From Pirellula sp. (lineage in GTDB: Bacteria > Planctomycetota > Planctomycetia > Pirellulales > Pirellulaceae): a stretch of DNA of 44,949 nucleotides. The translations under genes and the position numbers were made by a program. The notes under the pieces are model-generated. The model was given only the letters and a program-made list of their open reading frames with translations. It was not told the origin of the DNA and ran no database searches. Location of the stretch: assembly GCA_025459245.1 (NCBI GenBank), contig JALOQZ010000002.1:1-44949 (forward strand), written 5' to 3'. Positions 19,221 through 28,326 of the stretch are shown here, piece after piece (position 1 is the first letter of the stretch; each line of letters begins with the position of its first letter).

Positions 19221-19286
19221 GCTTATCCGAAAACCATCGGAATCCGCGGCTCACGCCTGAGCGACTAATGGATTTCGGACAGACTC
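19221..19286. repeat. interspersed inverted-repeat element, copy B
   Basis: GCTTATCCGAAAACCATCGGAATCCGCGGCTCACGCCTGAGCGACTAATGGATTTCGGACAGACTC; same layout as copies A and C. Confidence 0.7.
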
Positions 19287-20188
19287 TAAGTCGGATTGTC
19301 GACACGGCCGGCCGACGGCATATCGTCGAAGACAGACACTTCAGGTTTCCTCGGTGGTTTTTTAAAAATAGGGGTAGCGCGAATCGTTTTCAAAACATCC
19401 CACATGGATTGAGGGCGATCTTCGGGCTTCTTTGCCATCATTTTTCGGACGACGTTGTTGAATTCAGGCGTCACGTTGTCGTTGACAACGAGTATGGATG
19501 GAGGCACAGCCGACAGGTGTTTGCTCAGAAGATCGTTTGGGGTGTTTCCTGTAAACGGTGGTTTGCCGACTAGCAATTCGTAGAACATGCAACCGAGCGA
19601 ATAGATATCGCTGCGAGGATCAAGGCCCTGGCCGCGGATCTGCTCGGGGGACATATAGGAGCGAGTCCCTTCCACCTTGCTCTTTCCGCCGAAGAGTTTG
19701 CTAAGTCCGGTTTTCGCTTTCTTCGCGATGGTGAAGTCGATGAGTTTTACCAATCCATCGCGATTGACGAGGATATTGTCGGGCTTGATATCGCAGTGGA
19801 CGTAGCCCTTGCTGTGGAAGTAGTAGAGGGCTTCGCTGATTTGTTCGATGATGGAGGCGAGCATGTACGCGATCGGCTCGGGGCCTTTTCGCATCGCTTG
19901 TTTCAAGTTGATTTCGCTGAAGAGTTCAAGGACGATGAAGGGGGTATCCGCGTCGGTGACGTATTCAACCAGCTTGATGATGTTCTTGTGATGGAGGTTG
20001 CTAGCGATTTCAAATTCGTGTTTGAGGAATGCGATTTCCTCTTTGTTGCCCCGCTGTTCGGGCCGAAGAACTTTGAGGGCGTAGTGATTCCCGTCGTCTT
20101 TGATTCCTTCCCAGACTTGGCAAGTGCTTCCGAGGCGGATCAATCGGGCCAATCGGTATGGCCCCAGAAAGTCTCGAACTTTAACCAT
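19286..20188 (-). CDS. Ser/Thr protein kinase
   Basis: 300 aa; YVHCDIKPDNILV, IDFTIAKK, GTRSYMSPEQIRGQG, SDIYSLGCMFYELL. Confidence 0.92.
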   Translation of the reverse strand: MVKVRDFLGPYRLARLIRLGSTCQVWEGIKDDGNHYALKVLRPEQRGNKEEIAFLKHEFEIASNLHHKNIIKLVEYVTDADTPFIVLELFSEINLKQAMRKGPEPIAYMLASIIEQISEALYYFHSKGYVHCDIKPDNILVNRDGLVKLIDFTIAKKAKTGLSKLFGGKSKVEGTRSYMSPEQIRGQGLDPRSDIYSLGCMFYELLVGKPPFTGNTPNDLLSKHLSAVPPSILVVNDNVTPEFNNVVRKMMAKKPEDRPQSMWDVLKTIRATPIFKKPPRKPEVSVFDDMPSAGRVDNPT

Positions 20189-20443: not shown

Positions 20444-23400
20444 TCAGTCGCCCGCCCGCGCCGGGACCGGCGGGGCTTGAATGGTATCGGTGGCTTCCCG
20501 TTGCCAAACTTCGACAAACTGGGCTTGTGGGTAGATGAAGTTCTTTTGCTTCTCCCCTTCCCTTGCCTGCCGGATTTGTTCGTCTGCCTCGGCGCGAAGC
20601 TCATCGGTGAGGCTTTCGCTAGACTCTGTCCGTTTCCCAAGATGCCATAGCGATAGGGCGCGGACGTATCCGTTGCAGCCGCTAGTAAGCGAGTTCTGTT
20701 CAAGAACTTCAATGCAGCGCTCGAATTGACCCGATCGATAAAGCGCCCAAGCGTAGGATTCCTGCCATCGCTTCGAGTCGGGGAATTGTTGGAGACCGAA
20801 CTCCGCAAGCTGGAGCGACAACCTTGGGGCTCGAAGCTCAGGCACGCTTGCGCACAGAACGCCGTTCAATCGATAGGCGTGCTCAAAACATTCACCAACT
20901 AAGAAGTGCTCTTCAATAAGGTAGCGAAACTGATTGCTAAGAAGATCAAGATCAGCCTTTCTTCGCAACTGGCTTGGGGTAAGAACAAAATCTATCTCGG
21001 GATCAGGAACAGAGTCGTGATTCGCCATAAGAACCATAAACGTGCAAAGGAAGTCTTTATTTTTACTTTGCGTCAGGCAGTCGAACCAGATTTTCCAAGC
21101 TTCCTCTTTCCATGACTCAATCTCATTGAGCACCGTGCGAAGTTCTTCTTGAAGCGACTCCACTTGATTCGGTTCGAGATTCGTGTCACTAGACGTGATT
21201 TGCTCAAGTACTATTTTCGCGTAGAAGAAAGGAATATGAGCAAAGCCAATACGATTGGTAAGGCTTCGGTAAATGGAACCAAATTGGTCTGACTGAAGTA
21301 ACTTAGAAGAATCGGGTGATTCCAAGGGATTAAGGGGCTCGAGTCGTGCCAAATTTCGACTGATCCTTTTCAATGCAGGGCCTACTGGCAAGTAGTTGCG
21401 TTCCTCGATGCAGATTTCCATAAGGATCGTGTCAAGTTCCACCAGACGCGTGAGAAAAAAACGGTGGTCTGTTCCGTTTTTCTCCGGCAGTTCTATGTTC
21501 GTATTCTTCGATGCAAACTCGTCGACGAGTTGCAATAAACGATAGTTAGGGATTGTCCCGAGGTTTCGTGCGAAATGGGCCTTAAGTAGCCAGTTCGAGA
21601 CATGGTGTTGTCGGTAATGCAGATTCGTAGGGTAAATCTGCTCAAGTTTCTCATGGATCTTAATTGACTTTTCCAGGCCATCGAGTTTCTCAGAATCAGG
21701 AAGATTCAGGCTTAGGCTTTTGTATCCGATTGCGAGAGAAAACAGATTGTGTTCGTTGTTGGGAAACGAGTCGACCAAGCGTTGGTCGATTTCGAGCGAT
21801 TTTTCCAACAGGCTGTTTGATTTTGCTTGGTCGAAAACACTTTTCCTAGAATCGCCGTATAAAACCGAAAGATTTCTTAAGGCAATCGCGTAGGACCTTA
21901 AAAAGGATTCGTCGTTGATGTTTTCGGTTACCAAAGGTTCGAGAGTAGAAACGGCAAGATTCGCATCACGTTCTTGTTCTTCAATCGATTTCTTTTTGAA
22001 CAAATCTCTCGCAAATTTCGTTGCATAGATTTTCGAAAGTGTTATCTGATCATCCGATCTATCGGGGAATTTCCTTGCGATCCTCTCAGCAACCCTTTCG
22101 ATCTCTGGACACAGCTCCTCGAAAGTCGAATCCAGTTCACGAGTAAAGCTGCTAGCAATGCCCTGGTAGTTCTCTACCCAAAGCCGCTTCTGTTCGTCCG
22201 ACATTGAGTCGGGGCTGGGTAGTTTTTTCATCACTTGCCAGCTCTTTTCAATGCACGATTTCCTCGTTGCTTGATCGCCAATCGTGTTGTAATGAACCGC
22301 CAAAGAGTTGTATGCCGATGCTTGTTCGAGTCTCACATCGATCCAATGAGGATGATCGTCGGAGAGGCTTTCGCATAGTTGGATTGCTTTAAGATTGTTT
22401 GCGATCGATTCGTCTGTCTTCTTGAGAAAGTATTTCGCATCGGCGATTTTGAGAATCGCTCTTATGACTTCAAGCTGCATTTCGGGATCATTCGATTCGG
22501 TCTCTGCGAGCGCCTGGAAGTGCTCCAGCGCTCGATTGAGCACCTGTTCGGTTTGGGGCGTCAATTTTCTATTCGAGTGCATCCAGTTGGATTCGAATTG
22601 TTCATAGAGTTCATCAACGGCGCGGATGGCGACTTGTCCACGTCGGGTTGCCTGTCTTTCTGCTTCGCGCGCGCGAATGGCTTGCGACGTGGTACCGGCC
22701 AACCCCGCGATGACGGCGAGAGCGACAACTGCCGTGGTGGACACCATGACTCGATTTCGCCGCAAGGACTTTCCCAATCGATACCAACGCGTCGGCGGAT
22801 GCGCGAGGACGGGTTCGTCCGAGAGGTAACGTTGGATATCTGCGGCGAACGCGTTTGCCGACTCGTACCGGCGTTCTCGCGATTTCTCCAATGCCTTCAT
22901 GATGATCCAGTCCAACTCACCGCGAAGGGATTGCAGCAAGGCATCGGATCGAATCCTCCTCCGATCGCAAACAGTTGCCGCTTGGTTGGCTTGAAGTGTG
23001 CTGAGTCGCTGGCTAGGGCTGGGGGGATCGACTTCCCGTACGACGCGCTGGAATTCTTCAAAGGAAGATTCGCGGAGCGTTTCCGGAGCGAATGGCAGAT
23101 AACCGGTTAGTAATTCGTAAAGGACGACTCCGAGGGAATAGATATCGCTTCGGGTATCGACATCTCGGGCATTCCACTGGGCTTGCTCAGGGCTCATGTA
23201 CAACGGAGTCCCAATTAGCTGTCCAAACGCCGTATATACTGAATCGGGGGTCAGTGGTTCGATTGTCGCCTTGGCGATACCAAAGTCGATCACTTTGGGA
23301 AGTGGAACGTCATCGTTCATCGCCACCAGAATGTTATTGGGCTTGATGTCTCGATGAATGATTCCTTTTTGATGGGCATGTTGCACTGCATGGCAGACAT

Positions 23401-24001
23401 CGATGAACAGTTTGAGCCGATCCTCAATTACCATCTGAGCATCGTCGCAGAATTGGGTAATCGGTAGCCCCGAAACCAGCTCCATGGCGAAGTAGGGTCT
23501 CCCGTCCTCGAGTAGCCCGCCATCGTAGATCTGGGCGATGTTGGGATGTTCCATGACCGCCAACGCTTGCCGCTCTGCTTCAAAGCGGTGAATGACATCC
23601 TTGCTAACGCACCCCGGCTTCATGACCTTCAATGCTACTTTTCTACGAACGGGAAGAGTTTGCTCGGCGACGTACACCAAACCCATGCCTCCTTCGCCAA
23701 TTTGTTCGCGGATTCTGTAATTGCTCAGGTGGGGCAATGATGGTTCGCCTCGCTGCCGATCGCCCTCCTCCATATTGCGATTACCGATGGAAACAGTAGC
23801 GGTCTCGGCTGGACAGAGATTCTCAATGGCTACGCTAAGGGGATCGTTTCGGGGAGCGTCTAGTGCAGACAGAAGTCTCCGAACCGATTGATATTGTTCG
23901 GAGGATTTGCAAGCACCTTGAAGAAAGAGGTCGCGATCTTCGGGTGACGTAATCTCGAGCGCTTTTTCGAACAGCTCTCGATCGCTTTCAAATGGGGGCA
24001 T
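20444..24001 (-). CDS. Ser/Thr protein kinase with TM segment and long TPR-like C-terminal region (ECF-associated type)
   Basis: NYRIREQIGEGGMGLVYVAEQ, IIHRDIKPNNILV, DFGIAKA, GTPLYMSPEQ; N-terminal FEKALEITSPEDRDLFLQGAC typical of planctomycete ECF-linked kinases. ORF track opens at 24028; Met at 24001 also plausible. Confidence 0.93.
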   Translation of the reverse strand: MPPFESDRELFEKALEITSPEDRDLFLQGACKSSEQYQSVRRLLSALDAPRNDPLSVAIENLCPAETATVSIGNRNMEEGDRQRGEPSLPHLSNYRIREQIGEGGMGLVYVAEQTLPVRRKVALKVMKPGCVSKDVIHRFEAERQALAVMEHPNIAQIYDGGLLEDGRPYFAMELVSGLPITQFCDDAQMVIEDRLKLFIDVCHAVQHAHQKGIIHRDIKPNNILVAMNDDVPLPKVIDFGIAKATIEPLTPDSVYTAFGQLIGTPLYMSPEQAQWNARDVDTRSDIYSLGVVLYELLTGYLPFAPETLRESSFEEFQRVVREVDPPSPSQRLSTLQANQAATVCDRRRIRSDALLQSLRGELDWIIMKALEKSRERRYESANAFAADIQRYLSDEPVLAHPPTRWYRLGKSLRRNRVMVSTTAVVALAVIAGLAGTTSQAIRAREAERQATRRGQVAIRAVDELYEQFESNWMHSNRKLTPQTEQVLNRALEHFQALAETESNDPEMQLEVIRAILKIADAKYFLKKTDESIANNLKAIQLCESLSDDHPHWIDVRLEQASAYNSLAVHYNTIGDQATRKSCIEKSWQVMKKLPSPDSMSDEQKRLWVENYQGIASSFTRELDSTFEELCPEIERVAERIARKFPDRSDDQITLSKIYATKFARDLFKKKSIEEQERDANLAVSTLEPLVTENINDESFLRSYAIALRNLSVLYGDSRKSVFDQAKSNSLLEKSLEIDQRLVDSFPNNEHNLFSLAIGYKSLSLNLPDSEKLDGLEKSIKIHEKLEQIYPTNLHYRQHHVSNWLLKAHFARNLGTIPNYRLLQLVDEFASKNTNIELPEKNGTDHRFFLTRLVELDTILMEICIEERNYLPVGPALKRISRNLARLEPLNPLESPDSSKLLQSDQFGSIYRSLTNRIGFAHIPFFYAKIVLEQITSSDTNLEPNQVESLQEELRTVLNEIESWKEEAWKIWFDCLTQSKNKDFLCTFMVLMANHDSVPDPEIDFVLTPSQLRRKADLDLLSNQFRYLIEEHFLVGECFEHAYRLNGVLCASVPELRAPRLSLQLAEFGLQQFPDSKRWQESYAWALYRSGQFERCIEVLEQNSLTSGCNGYVRALSLWHLGKRTESSESLTDELRAEADEQIRQAREGEKQKNFIYPQAQFVEVWQREATDTIQAPPVPARAGD

Positions 24002-24161
24002 TGTTCTATCCTGGGAAAAACGGCACAACGACTAAATGATTATGCGTAATTCCTGATCCCCATTTTCCGAATTGCCCGGAATTTTCGTTCAGGGAGACCG
24101 TCTCAGTTCACCACTGAGGGCCGTTTAACTTGCGTTGTCTTCTGGCGGCGAGCGGGATTCT

Positions 24162-24740
24162 CTACGAAGGAGACTGAAGATTGGCTGCAGACCAGGCGCG
24201 AGCGTAATCCCAAAGTCGATAGGATGCTTTTCTGGACAGCCCAAGCAGTTCGCCCGCCTCAGAAATGGAAAGGCCCGCGAAGACTCGCAGTTTGATCATC
24301 TCTGCTGCTTGCGGGTCGCTTTGACTAAGCCGATCGATCCCTTCGTCCAAATCTAGAAGCGATTCAATTTCCCAACTGGGGCTAGCAATCCCGTTTGGGT
24401 CCAACTCAATTTTTTGGTGCGTTCCCCCACCTCGTTTGGCCGCGTTTCTTTTGCGAGCGTGATCGATCAAGATGCGTCGCATCGCTTCGGCAGCGGCCGC
24501 GAAGAAGTGTCCTTTGCTGTCCCATTGCGTTGAAGGAGACGACTCGTAGATCCGACAATAGACCTCGTGAACGAGAGCGGTGGAATGCAAAGTATGATTC
24601 CATCGCTCGTGTCGCAGCTTTTCGTCTGCCAATCGTTTAAGTTCGGCGTAAGCCAGAGCAAAAAGCGATTGCGTGTCGCTTTTGCTAGTGGAGGCCAGCG
24701 ACTCTTGATCGTCGTTCTGAGAGGGTCGGCGAGACTCCAC
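24162..24740 (-). CDS. ECF-type RNA polymerase sigma factor
   Basis: 192 aa; LFALAYAELKRLADEKLRHERWNHTLHSTALVHEVYCRI...HFFAAAAEAMRRILIDHARKRNAAKRGG...GLSISEAGELLGLSRKASYRLWDYARAW. Confidence 0.92.
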   Translation of the reverse strand: MESRRPSQNDDQESLASTSKSDTQSLFALAYAELKRLADEKLRHERWNHTLHSTALVHEVYCRIYESSPSTQWDSKGHFFAAAAEAMRRILIDHARKRNAAKRGGGTHQKIELDPNGIASPSWEIESLLDLDEGIDRLSQSDPQAAEMIKLRVFAGLSISEAGELLGLSRKASYRLWDYARAWSAANLQSPS

Positions 24741-24777: not shown

Positions 24778-26694
24778 CTAGCGAGAAGCTAGTTGGGGTT
24801 TGAGGGGATCGGCGGGGAGACCGGGGACTCGCTGGAAAGTGGGAATCAGCTCGCCGGCGTCAAAAGAGAGTAGTCTCTTTTCACCGACGAAATAGTTGTG
24901 GTTGTCCGCCACGACGAGGTTGTAAGTAACTTCGTCCTTAGCGGAAGACAACTCTTTGATCGCCACATTCCCACTCGTCGTTCGGATCGCCATTCCCGGT
25001 TGGAGGTCCTTGGTCTTGGTCCAACCTTTTCCAGTTACCCACCAGGGGTGGCCGAGTGTACTGACGATCGATTCGCCGGATTCAAGCGTCATACTGCGTG
25101 TAGGGGCAGGTGCTCGACGGGTCGTTCGAATCACCGGTTTGAGAGAGAGTTCCCCTGTCAAAATATTCTGCGAAACAACTTGGTCCCCGATTCGAATCGA
25201 TTCGATCGACACCAGACCGGTTTCGGTTTGTATCGCCGTTCCCGCGACAAGGCACTCGCATGCGTTTTCTGGTAGCGTGAACGAAACTTGCACGGGGCGC
25301 GGAGTGTAGACTGGCGAGGAATAATCCTGACCGTATTGGTAGTTGATTTCTTTAGGGCTTAAGACTTCGATTTCTTGCTGTTTCTGCCACCAGCTCCACC
25401 AAGTCTTCGCGTTGTCATCCAGTTTCTGACCGGACGTGGCTCGCAGTACAAACGCGATCTTACTTTGCTTGTCTCGAAGCTCTGCATTGGAGTTCGCAGC
25501 GGCTGCGGTATTCGCATTCGCAGATCTCTGCGCCTCATCCAACGCGATGCTAGCCGCAACCGCATTGGTTGGGGATTGGATCGTGGCGACGTTGCGTCCG
25601 GATCGAAGACCCAGTCGGCGGTTGCTCATCGCCATTCTCGGCGTGATGTTGGGGCCACGACCGGTTGTCAATATCTTGTCGATCTGAATGACTTCATTCG
25701 TGTCTTGTAATTCCTGTCGTCCGATCGTTTGCAACACCAGCGCGCCATTAGGTCGCGTAACGATCTGATTCTGCACTTCGATGTCCGATGCCATCAAGTC
25801 GAGAAGTTCGGGTACATACCATTCGCTTTCGACGTCTTTTAATCCTTTGATCGCGGAGACAGAGACTGGGGAGTTTGGCTCACTGATTGCCAAATTGGCG
25901 AGAGCGGAACATGCCTCTTTTGTCTGGAATCGGCGGATGGCATTGACGAGGTGCACCGCGGTGTCTCCCGAGAATTGCACTGCGCCAGCATGGAGAGCGG
26001 GCACGATTCCTGGGTCCTCTACCTTTTGAAGCCACTCAATTGCCTTGATCGACTCTTTGCCACCGCGATCGAGCTGCGAGGCAACTTCATTCACACGCGG
26101 ATACCATTTCTTAAGGGATGTCAGAGTTTCGGAATTCTGTTCCAGGATGGATTGCCATTCCTCGGCGCTAACCCAGCGATTCCCAATACGGCGAAAGCCG
26201 AGCGCTTTTCGCGCTTCTGCATGGTTGGGCTCGAATGAGAGAACTCCGTACCAATGCGCCTTGGCTTGAGGCATCCAGTTTTGGGAGTTGCAGTAAACAG
26301 CCATCGAGCGATGACCTTCTAGATCAAGAGGCTGATCACCTCGTTGCTTCCTGTATTTTCGAAGACTTGATTTGAGGTCTTCCTCGGTGATCTCTTCTAC
26401 CGCTTTCCAATCTTTATCCAATTGAATGAGACCCGATTGCCACGACAAAGCCGATAAGGTCCGTTTTGATACCTCTTCGCTGTTGCTCTGAAGGGAGGTG
26501 AGCAAGGTCGAACGGTTCAGAGGGACACCTTTCGATTCATCCTGCAAAACATCTTGTAGAGATACATATCGGGATGAGGTACTCGATCCTTGATCGCGCT
26601 CGCCGCCAAAGAGAACGGGAACCATACCGCTATGGATAACCATACCGAGAGCCAATAAACGGCTCATGTGACGACCACTCGAATGCGTTCGCAT
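24778..26694 (-). CDS. secreted HEAT/TPR-like repeat protein with C-terminal HINT (intein/hedgehog-like) domain
   Basis: C-terminal CLVAGTAIQTETGLVSIESIRIGDQVVSQN...STLGHPWWVTGKGWTKTKDLQPGM...YNLVVADNHNYFVG matches HINT blocks. ORF opens at 26952; Met at 26694 followed by a signal peptide-like stretch is the likely start. Confidence 0.85.
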   Translation of the reverse strand: MRTHSSGRHMSRLLALGMVIHSGMVPVLFGGERDQGSSTSSRYVSLQDVLQDESKGVPLNRSTLLTSLQSNSEEVSKRTLSALSWQSGLIQLDKDWKAVEEITEEDLKSSLRKYRKQRGDQPLDLEGHRSMAVYCNSQNWMPQAKAHWYGVLSFEPNHAEARKALGFRRIGNRWVSAEEWQSILEQNSETLTSLKKWYPRVNEVASQLDRGGKESIKAIEWLQKVEDPGIVPALHAGAVQFSGDTAVHLVNAIRRFQTKEACSALANLAISEPNSPVSVSAIKGLKDVESEWYVPELLDLMASDIEVQNQIVTRPNGALVLQTIGRQELQDTNEVIQIDKILTTGRGPNITPRMAMSNRRLGLRSGRNVATIQSPTNAVAASIALDEAQRSANANTAAAANSNAELRDKQSKIAFVLRATSGQKLDDNAKTWWSWWQKQQEIEVLSPKEINYQYGQDYSSPVYTPRPVQVSFTLPENACECLVAGTAIQTETGLVSIESIRIGDQVVSQNILTGELSLKPVIRTTRRAPAPTRSMTLESGESIVSTLGHPWWVTGKGWTKTKDLQPGMAIRTTSGNVAIKELSSAKDEVTYNLVVADNHNYFVGEKRLLSFDAGELIPTFQRVPGLPADPLKPQLASR

Positions 26695-26898
26695 CGCCAA
26701 CTCCTTCGTGCCTTCGGGCAACAGAATACAAGAAGAGTTCAAGCAGTAAACAGCAGCAAGATTCGGCGTGAACTGCTTGAATAGTGAAGCACTGACTCTC
26801 TCGAGTGTATAGAATCGGGAATTGTCGCGCCAACAGCTGGCGGAATAAAATCTGTTTTTTCTGCGGTCGACCATTTTACTGGGAGCTCGACGCACGCC

Positions 26899-28326
26899 AT
26901 GAGCAAGCCAATTTTTTCGTTTGCAGGCTTTTTCGCATTTCCCTATTTCCATTCGTCTGGCTCGTTACAGTGGTACGGCCTGTCACGGCGGCATGGTGCT
27001 ATCTGCCTAGTGGGTTTCTCGATTCTATCGCCCGGAGTCGAAAACTTTGCCTGTGCACAAGATATGCCCGACCGTGCCCAAGTGGCACCTGAAAATGTTC
27101 CCGACGATGACGCCGCCGGTCTCGGCGCCGAATCGTCACCGATCAGTGCATTGGTGCAAACGACGGCGGATGTTCGAGAGCATTTACTGAAACAGGGACT
27201 GATGCAAACGCGGCTTCTACAGCTTCAGACTTCCCTGCAGCAAACAGAAGAAAGTTGGATACGCATCAAACGGGAGCAAAGCCGTCAAATGGCAATGCAA
27301 TTCGCTGCGTTGGAAGCATCCGCATTCTTGGGAAATCTCGCGACGGGCATGAATGACGAAATCAGGGCGTCGAGGAATGATCGAAACAATCGAAATTTCA
27401 ATGCCACAGAAGCACGACAGCAATTGAGAGAAATCACGCTGGCCAAAGCCCAAGCGGACTTGAACGCACTGAGCCGAAGCGAGGAAATACGGCAGCTTGA
27501 CTCGGTCTCTCTCGCAGTTGTCCAACGCCGGATGAAAACCATTCAAGAATTGATCGACCTTCATCAAAAGTGGCTTCAATGGCAGGTCGATTATGCTGGC
27601 TTTCTTTCCCGATATTGGCCTCACACAGACCCCGAACGTCGGTTTTCGGAAGAGGAAATCAGGGAACGCCTCCAAGTATTATTGCAGGCCTCTGAGACGG
27701 ACTACGCCGCAATGATAGCTTGCTCGCTTCTTCACGAACGCCTTGGCGATCTCGACGAAGCCTGGACTTGGTTGGAACGAGCGGCGCAAGGACCTGTGTT
27801 TTTTGAGTCGACCGTGCTTCACATACGACTCTTTTTGCTTTCCTCCATGAAAAAACACCGAGAAGCAAAGACCTTGATGGCGAGGATCGCCAAACTGGAA
27901 TCCCTTTCGCCATGCGATCGTTGGATCAAAGCGAGGTGGTTGGCGGGCGAAAATAATTGGGGCAGCGCGGAAACGGAGTGGAAGAAGCTTACCGCGGAGA
28001 AAGACTTTCGAATCCCCGCCCATCGCACGCTTGCCTTATTGCATTTGAGGAAAGGGGACGCAAATTCGTCGGCCCGAGAGAAAGCTTTCAAGGAGGCGAC
28101 CACCGCGCTGGATCTCACGCCGGAACCCGATTGGTTCTCGTATTTTGTGATGGCGAACGCGTGCGCGGCCATGCATCGAACCGACGATGCAATCGCCTAC
28201 TTGAAGAAAGCGGATGAACTGGTCAACGGTGAAAACAAAACGCTTTGTCAGAATCTATCCGAGGCTATCGACCAGCAAAAGTTTCTTGTATGGGACATGA
28301 CGCGACGCTGCATCCCAGCTCCCTGA
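26899..28326 (+). CDS. hypothetical TPR-like protein with N-terminal signal/anchor
   Basis: 475 aa; helical repeats (AACSLLHERLGDLDEAWTWLERAAQG..., AYLKKADELVNGENKT). Confidence 0.7.
   Translation: MSKPIFSFAGFFAFPYFHSSGSLQWYGLSRRHGAICLVGFSILSPGVENFACAQDMPDRAQVAPENVPDDDAAGLGAESSPISALVQTTADVREHLLKQGLMQTRLLQLQTSLQQTEESWIRIKREQSRQMAMQFAALEASAFLGNLATGMNDEIRASRNDRNNRNFNATEARQQLREITLAKAQADLNALSRSEEIRQLDSVSLAVVQRRMKTIQELIDLHQKWLQWQVDYAGFLSRYWPHTDPERRFSEEEIRERLQVLLQASETDYAAMIACSLLHERLGDLDEAWTWLERAAQGPVFFESTVLHIRLFLLSSMKKHREAKTLMARIAKLESLSPCDRWIKARWLAGENNWGSAETEWKKLTAEKDFRIPAHRTLALLHLRKGDANSSAREKAFKEATTALDLTPEPDWFSYFVMANACAAMHRTDDAIAYLKKADELVNGENKTLCQNLSEAIDQQKFLVWDMTRRCIPAP

Follow-up and report, generated by a model that had tools for sequence, protein, structure and literature searches.

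An aspartate-ending HINT domain at the C-terminus of a family of probably exported TPR/HEAT proteins in Planctomycetia

What can a HINT domain do when it stands near the end of its host protein and lacks the residues with which inteins complete splicing? The question is raised by an open reading frame on the minus strand (24778-26952) of a 44,949-nucleotide stretch of DNA from Pirellula sp. (contig JALOQZ010000002.1), the whole of which we analysed and refer to as "the window". Its first possible start lies at 26952, but comparison with relatives, which also begin near the ATG at 26694, indicates that this ATG is probably the start. The protein then comprises 638 residues, numbered here from the Met at 26694 (24778..26694, minus strand, as are all its parts listed below). 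It begins with a putative signal peptide (residues 1-36, MRTHSSGRHMSRLLALGMVIHSGMVPVLFGGERDQG; 26587..26694), recognized by eye from a basic start and a long hydrophobic stretch, and clearer signal peptides are present in several homologs; from this signal-peptide-like start we regard the protein as probably exported. There follow an alpha-solenoid of the TPR/HEAT type and then a small beta region (about residues 40-345; 25660..26577), a helical segment with a conserved WWxWW motif (about residues 378-440; 25375..25563), the HINT domain (Cys481 to Asp612; 24859..25254), and a C-terminal tail of 26 residues (613-638; 24781..24858). HEAT_2 was found in 18 of 31 family members, and the helices and strands of the N-terminal region are seen in the predicted model. 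The first-pass annotation had placed a HINT domain on a secreted repeat protein, which agrees with the presence of the solenoid and with probable secretion.

The HINT assignment itself is borne out by several lines of evidence. The domain matches the PT-HINT profile (PF07591) with E=2.1e-16 and 60.9 bits, against the Pfam cut-off of 27.7, and its sequence matches a solved BIL domain from Clostridium thermocellum (PDB 2lwy) with E=2.5e-16. Structure prediction, which had been proposed as a check, returned a HINT fold with a pLDDT of about 96, and a Foldseek search with this model retrieved 2lwy (E 6.2e-12, TM 0.91), while lower ranks were taken by inteins and by hedgehog Hint domains (e.g. 1at0, TM 0.78 by target length, 14% identity). 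Since profile, sequence match, predicted fold and Foldseek agree, the resemblance is not due to chance, and the C-terminal domain, with its fold as predicted, belongs to the HINT superfamily. In a fold search with the full-length model the best 50 matches were all to HINT domains, so that the matches listed are uninformative on the N-terminal part. NCBIfam gave no match for the HINT protein, Rfam gave none anywhere in the window, and models of defence systems matched neither the HINT protein nor its TPR neighbor (26899-28326).

All the motifs quoted in the first-pass annotation were found in the open reading frame: CECLVAGT, STLGHPWW, YNLVVADNHNYFVG, and the tail LLSFDAGELIPTFQRVPGLPADPLKPQLASR, which extends up to the stop. 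The first of them contains Cys481 (25252..25254), i.e. Cys1 of the HINT domain and the predicted nucleophile, while STLGHPWW contains His549 (25048..25050), the block-B His (B:10), which together with Thr546 forms the block-B pair. Asn592 (24919..24921) corresponds to position 4 of block F. The terminal His-Asn of inteins and the nucleophile after it are indeed replaced, as had been noticed, and Phe-Asp-Ala stands in their place: Phe611-Asp612 (24859..24864) occupies the His-Asn position, and the +1 residue is Ala613 instead of Cys, Ser or Thr (in the family it is mostly Asn, Val, Ala or Ile). The description of the domain as lacking a C-extein is only partly right, because a conserved short extension follows Asp612; what is absent is the splicing end.

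Matches to the HINT protein were obtained in 40 of 60 related genomes searched, many of them full length, and the full-length relatives have a common architecture of a signal-peptide-like start, a TPR/HEAT solenoid, the WWxWW segment, HINT, and a short tail. Such a HINT (E<=1e-40) is carried by 77 of 297 genomes of the order Pirellulales, and in a sample of the phylum matches of this strength came from the same class and from none of the other classes, with the reservation that the genome sets are drawn samples and the family counts are not complete. Among the best 80 of 449 loci, the names include Pirellula, Rhodopirellula, Rubripirellula, Stieleria, Adhaeretor, Lacipirellula, Aeoliella and Thalassoglobus. 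Judged by these sequence matches, the HINT protein is a member of a widespread family in Planctomycetia. No description of this planctomycete family was found in a literature search that reached few subscription papers, and a search on Rhodopirellula and intein returned no paper. At some loci two to three members of the family lie in tandem, all in the same direction (L037:5511-11337, L219:8349-14122, G367:C129 and G376:C186).

Residue conservation was counted over 122 distinct members, two of which run off the contig before their end, so that the end residues were read in 120. Cys1 is kept in 121 members (with Ser in the remaining one), and the block-B His and the F:4 Asn in 120 each; position B:7 is Thr in 92 and Ser in 29 (121 of 122 together). 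The position of the intein Asn is occupied by Asp in 118 of the 120 readable members and by Gly in two (L056 and L058), and the residue before it is His in 101 of 120. Block G is recognizable in the family as Leu-x-His-Asp, and in the window protein it is degraded to Leu-Ser-Phe-Asp. On the other side of the domain, 114 of 122 members carry Ser, Glu or Asp directly before Cys1 (-1). A Cys at -2, which would form a CxC redox switch, was rejected as a family feature because only 21 of 122 members possess it. Tail length ranges over 7-44 residues, with a median of 19 in 120 members. The tail has a VPGL-like motif, whose Pro is kept by 108 and whose Gly by 110 of the 122 members and which is represented in the window protein by Pro624-Gly625 (24820..24825). 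Two members, L167 and L172, have a shortened tail Asp-Asn-Thr-Asp-Gly-Lys-Thr-Asp devoid of Pro-Gly; the record of L172 bears the name Candidatus Kuenenia, which probably reflects a mixed bin.

Conservation of this kind shows that the residues matter and is silent on which reaction they perform. One may ask whether they perform any, i.e. whether the HINT is non-catalytic and serves only as a fold, e.g. as a binding module. The Asp in place of Asn and the loss of the penultimate His in the clade of the window protein would be in line with this, as would two clearly decayed members: L023, which has lost the block-B His, and L109, the sole member with Cys1 replaced (by Ser), which lacks that His as well. 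The retention of Cys1, the block-B His and the F:4 Asn, each in at least 120 of 122 members, argues in the opposite direction, and so does the dN/dS of the HINT domain in comparison with the ortholog from a sister genome (G006), which is 0.06 (0.12 overall, and 0.16 for the tail, where it is based on 26 codons only). We therefore regard a purely structural role as unlikely.

We consider it moderately probable that the HINT domain cleaves at Cys1 without splicing and that HINT together with the tail forms the second fragment, the activity being a prediction. In the probably exported protein, the C-terminal HINT would fold into an intein-like active site, in which Cys481, aided by Thr546 and His549, would attack the preceding peptide bond, giving rise to a thioester; residue conservation and known HINT chemistry suggest that either water or a small thiol would then cleave it. 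After the single cut, the TPR/HEAT part would measure about 49 kDa and HINT with the tail about 17 kDa. N-terminal cleavage, one of the outcomes envisaged at the outset, remains the likely predicted reaction: almost all of the 122 relatives retain Cys1, the block-B Thr/His and the F:4 Asn. The low dN/dS of HINT speaks for this reading as well, as does the combined loss of Cys1 and the block-B His in L109. In inteins, C-terminal cleavage is driven by cyclization of the terminal Asn and assisted by the penultimate His. With Asp in place of the cyclizing Asn and no nucleophile at +1, the domain is not expected to splice, and the tail would remain attached to HINT; C-terminal cleavage is even less likely because the penultimate residue is Phe. 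N-terminal cleavage of this kind has precedents: it occurs in B-type BILs, where the C-terminal motif is lacking (PMC7765530), and persists in an intein variant whose alteration prevents splicing (PMC11842431).

The known ability of Asp-ending inteins to splice (PMC4031507, PMC7664689) speaks against this reading and for a different scheme, in which Asp612 would cyclize or hydrolyze and free the tail, whose amine would then attack the Cys481 thioester; the tail would become joined to the TPR/HEAT part and HINT would be cut out, in the manner of A-type BIL splicing with the tail as a tiny C-extein. Ligation through a free amine has been proposed for A-type BILs (PMC4031507), and conservation of the tail and its apparent packing against the N-terminal part are in line with the scheme. 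Yet the penultimate His is Phe here and is missing throughout the clade, and the Asn is kept in toxin-type relatives of the domain, whereas Asp is fixed in the window family, so that we find this scheme quite improbable. The packing of the tail is suggested by two models made with the same set of 31 sequences: the tail is predicted as disordered, with a pLDDT of about 57, when HINT is modeled alone, and has a pLDDT of 85-87 in the full-length model; as the added N-terminal part is the sole difference, this rise in pLDDT indicates that the tail probably packs against it. If HINT makes a single cut at Cys1, as we favor, such packing could hold both fragments together afterwards.

The thioester might also be handed to an external nucleophile (a sterol, an amine or a sugar) in a hedgehog-like manner, whereby the TPR/HEAT part would be tethered to the cell surface. 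The probable export and the fold, which is the same as that of the hedgehog Hint 1at0 by the TM score given above, are compatible with this. Nevertheless, HINT is followed by 26 residues only and by no sterol-recognition region, no partner enzyme or acceptor was found, and the sequence names no acceptor; we consider such tethering very unlikely.

The clade of the window protein comprises thirteen members in which Phe, Tyr, Trp or Asn takes the place of the penultimate His. They form one side of a branch with a support of 99 in a FastTree tree, which was built without the penultimate residue and the tail. In eleven distinct genomic places members of this clade adjoin a divergently transcribed gene for a TPR protein, located in the window at 26899..28326 on the plus strand; its putative link with the HINT protein comes from synteny only. 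The product is a secreted-looking coiled-coil/TPR protein. At one of these places, in genome G510, the Phe-Asp ending led us to expect this neighbor, which was indeed there, and the compared loci of His-Asp members contained no clear homolog of the TPR gene, with weak TPR-level matches in a few. Two genomes (G026 and G033) possess one copy of each kind, i.e. one from the clade and one His-Asp form. Given the single origin of the clade, the association of the altered ending with the TPR neighbor counts as one event.

On the opposite side of the HINT gene, the first-pass annotation had drawn attention to an ECF sigma factor and a kinase as possible partners. The window contains there an ECF sigma factor of the Sig-70_X6 type (24162-24740), a large TPR Ser/Thr kinase (20444-24028) and a small kinase (19286-20188). 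In the sister genome the HINT protein is 86% identical, and the TPR gene and further genes on both sides are retained in the same order, but the ECF factor and the large kinase are both absent: HINT is followed by the ortholog of the small kinase and by accA, with nothing else between HINT and accA. Relatives of the ECF factor were found in none of the other loci compared. The proposed linkage is therefore rejected, and the ECF/large-kinase pair represents a local indel outside the HINT system; the conserved neighbor in this clade is the TPR gene. Relative to the sister genome, the segment 20444-24740, which here separates the HINT gene from the small kinase, is a 4.3-kb insertion or loss. At the corresponding place in L080 the small kinase is on the plus strand.

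A wider and decidedly speculative picture, which we find rather doubtful, is that these proteins form a distinct HINT class, in which the change of the terminal Asn to Asp has turned a splicing domain into a one-cut autoprotease, with the tail docking on the solenoid and so keeping the fragments of the self-cleaved protein together as a non-covalent, receptor-like pair, either periplasmic or at the planctomycete cell surface, one clade having in addition a TPR partner dedicated to it. The family is of interest because a single active-site substitution, Asn to Asp, has become fixed in it across a whole bacterial class, while the -1 residue and the short tail are constrained too. It offers a natural test of the roles of the terminal residue and the penultimate His in HINT chemistry, as well as a handle on this planctomycete family of probably secreted proteins.

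Comparison with known HINT systems begins with the pretoxin HINT (PF07591), which belongs to the same Pfam family and occurs in the same phylum. Toxin-type copies from this phylum end with His-Asn in 28 of 29 cases and with His-Asp in one, as found by a text pattern for these two endings that left out five cases and may miss other endings, and most have more than 100 residues after HINT. Their -1 residue is Ser in one of 25 copies with a readable start, and Glu or Asp in none. Pretoxin HINTs thus have His-Asn and mostly a toxin-sized domain behind it, whereas the window family has Asp and a short conserved tail. That the best Pfam match is PT-HINT could hint at a polymorphic toxin minus its toxin domain, but the architecture is fixed, the short conserved tail is present in 120 members across the class, Asp replaces Asn, and selection is purifying, which leaves such a remnant extremely improbable; with a family-wide tail of 7-44 residues, and 26 residues and no toxin domain here, we discarded it.

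BIL domains (A- and B-type, 2lwy) are the best match in both sequence and fold, and have in common with the window HINT the Cys1, the block-B Thr/His, the F:4 Asn and the lack of a +1 nucleophile. A-type BILs end with His-Asn, whereas the window HINT ends with Phe-Asp (and the family has Asp in 118 of 120 members). B-type BILs are said to lack the C-terminal motif (block G), while the window family mostly keeps an altered form of it; a third BIL type, from Bdellovibrio, was reportedly described by Dori-Bachash in 2009. Unlike BILs in general, the window family has a fixed host protein and a fixed C-terminal position. The hedgehog Hog domain is likewise a C-terminal HINT in a precursor destined for export and does not splice, but has a sterol-recognition region after Hint, where the window protein has only its 26-residue tail. 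With class 1 inteins ending in Asp, the window HINT has in common this residue and Cys1; in contrast to them it has no Cys, Ser or Thr at +1, is not inserted in a conserved host gene, and shows nothing indicating excision. On the evidence of sequence and architecture, the window HINT is neither a pretoxin HINT, from which its architecture sets it apart, nor an A-type BIL.
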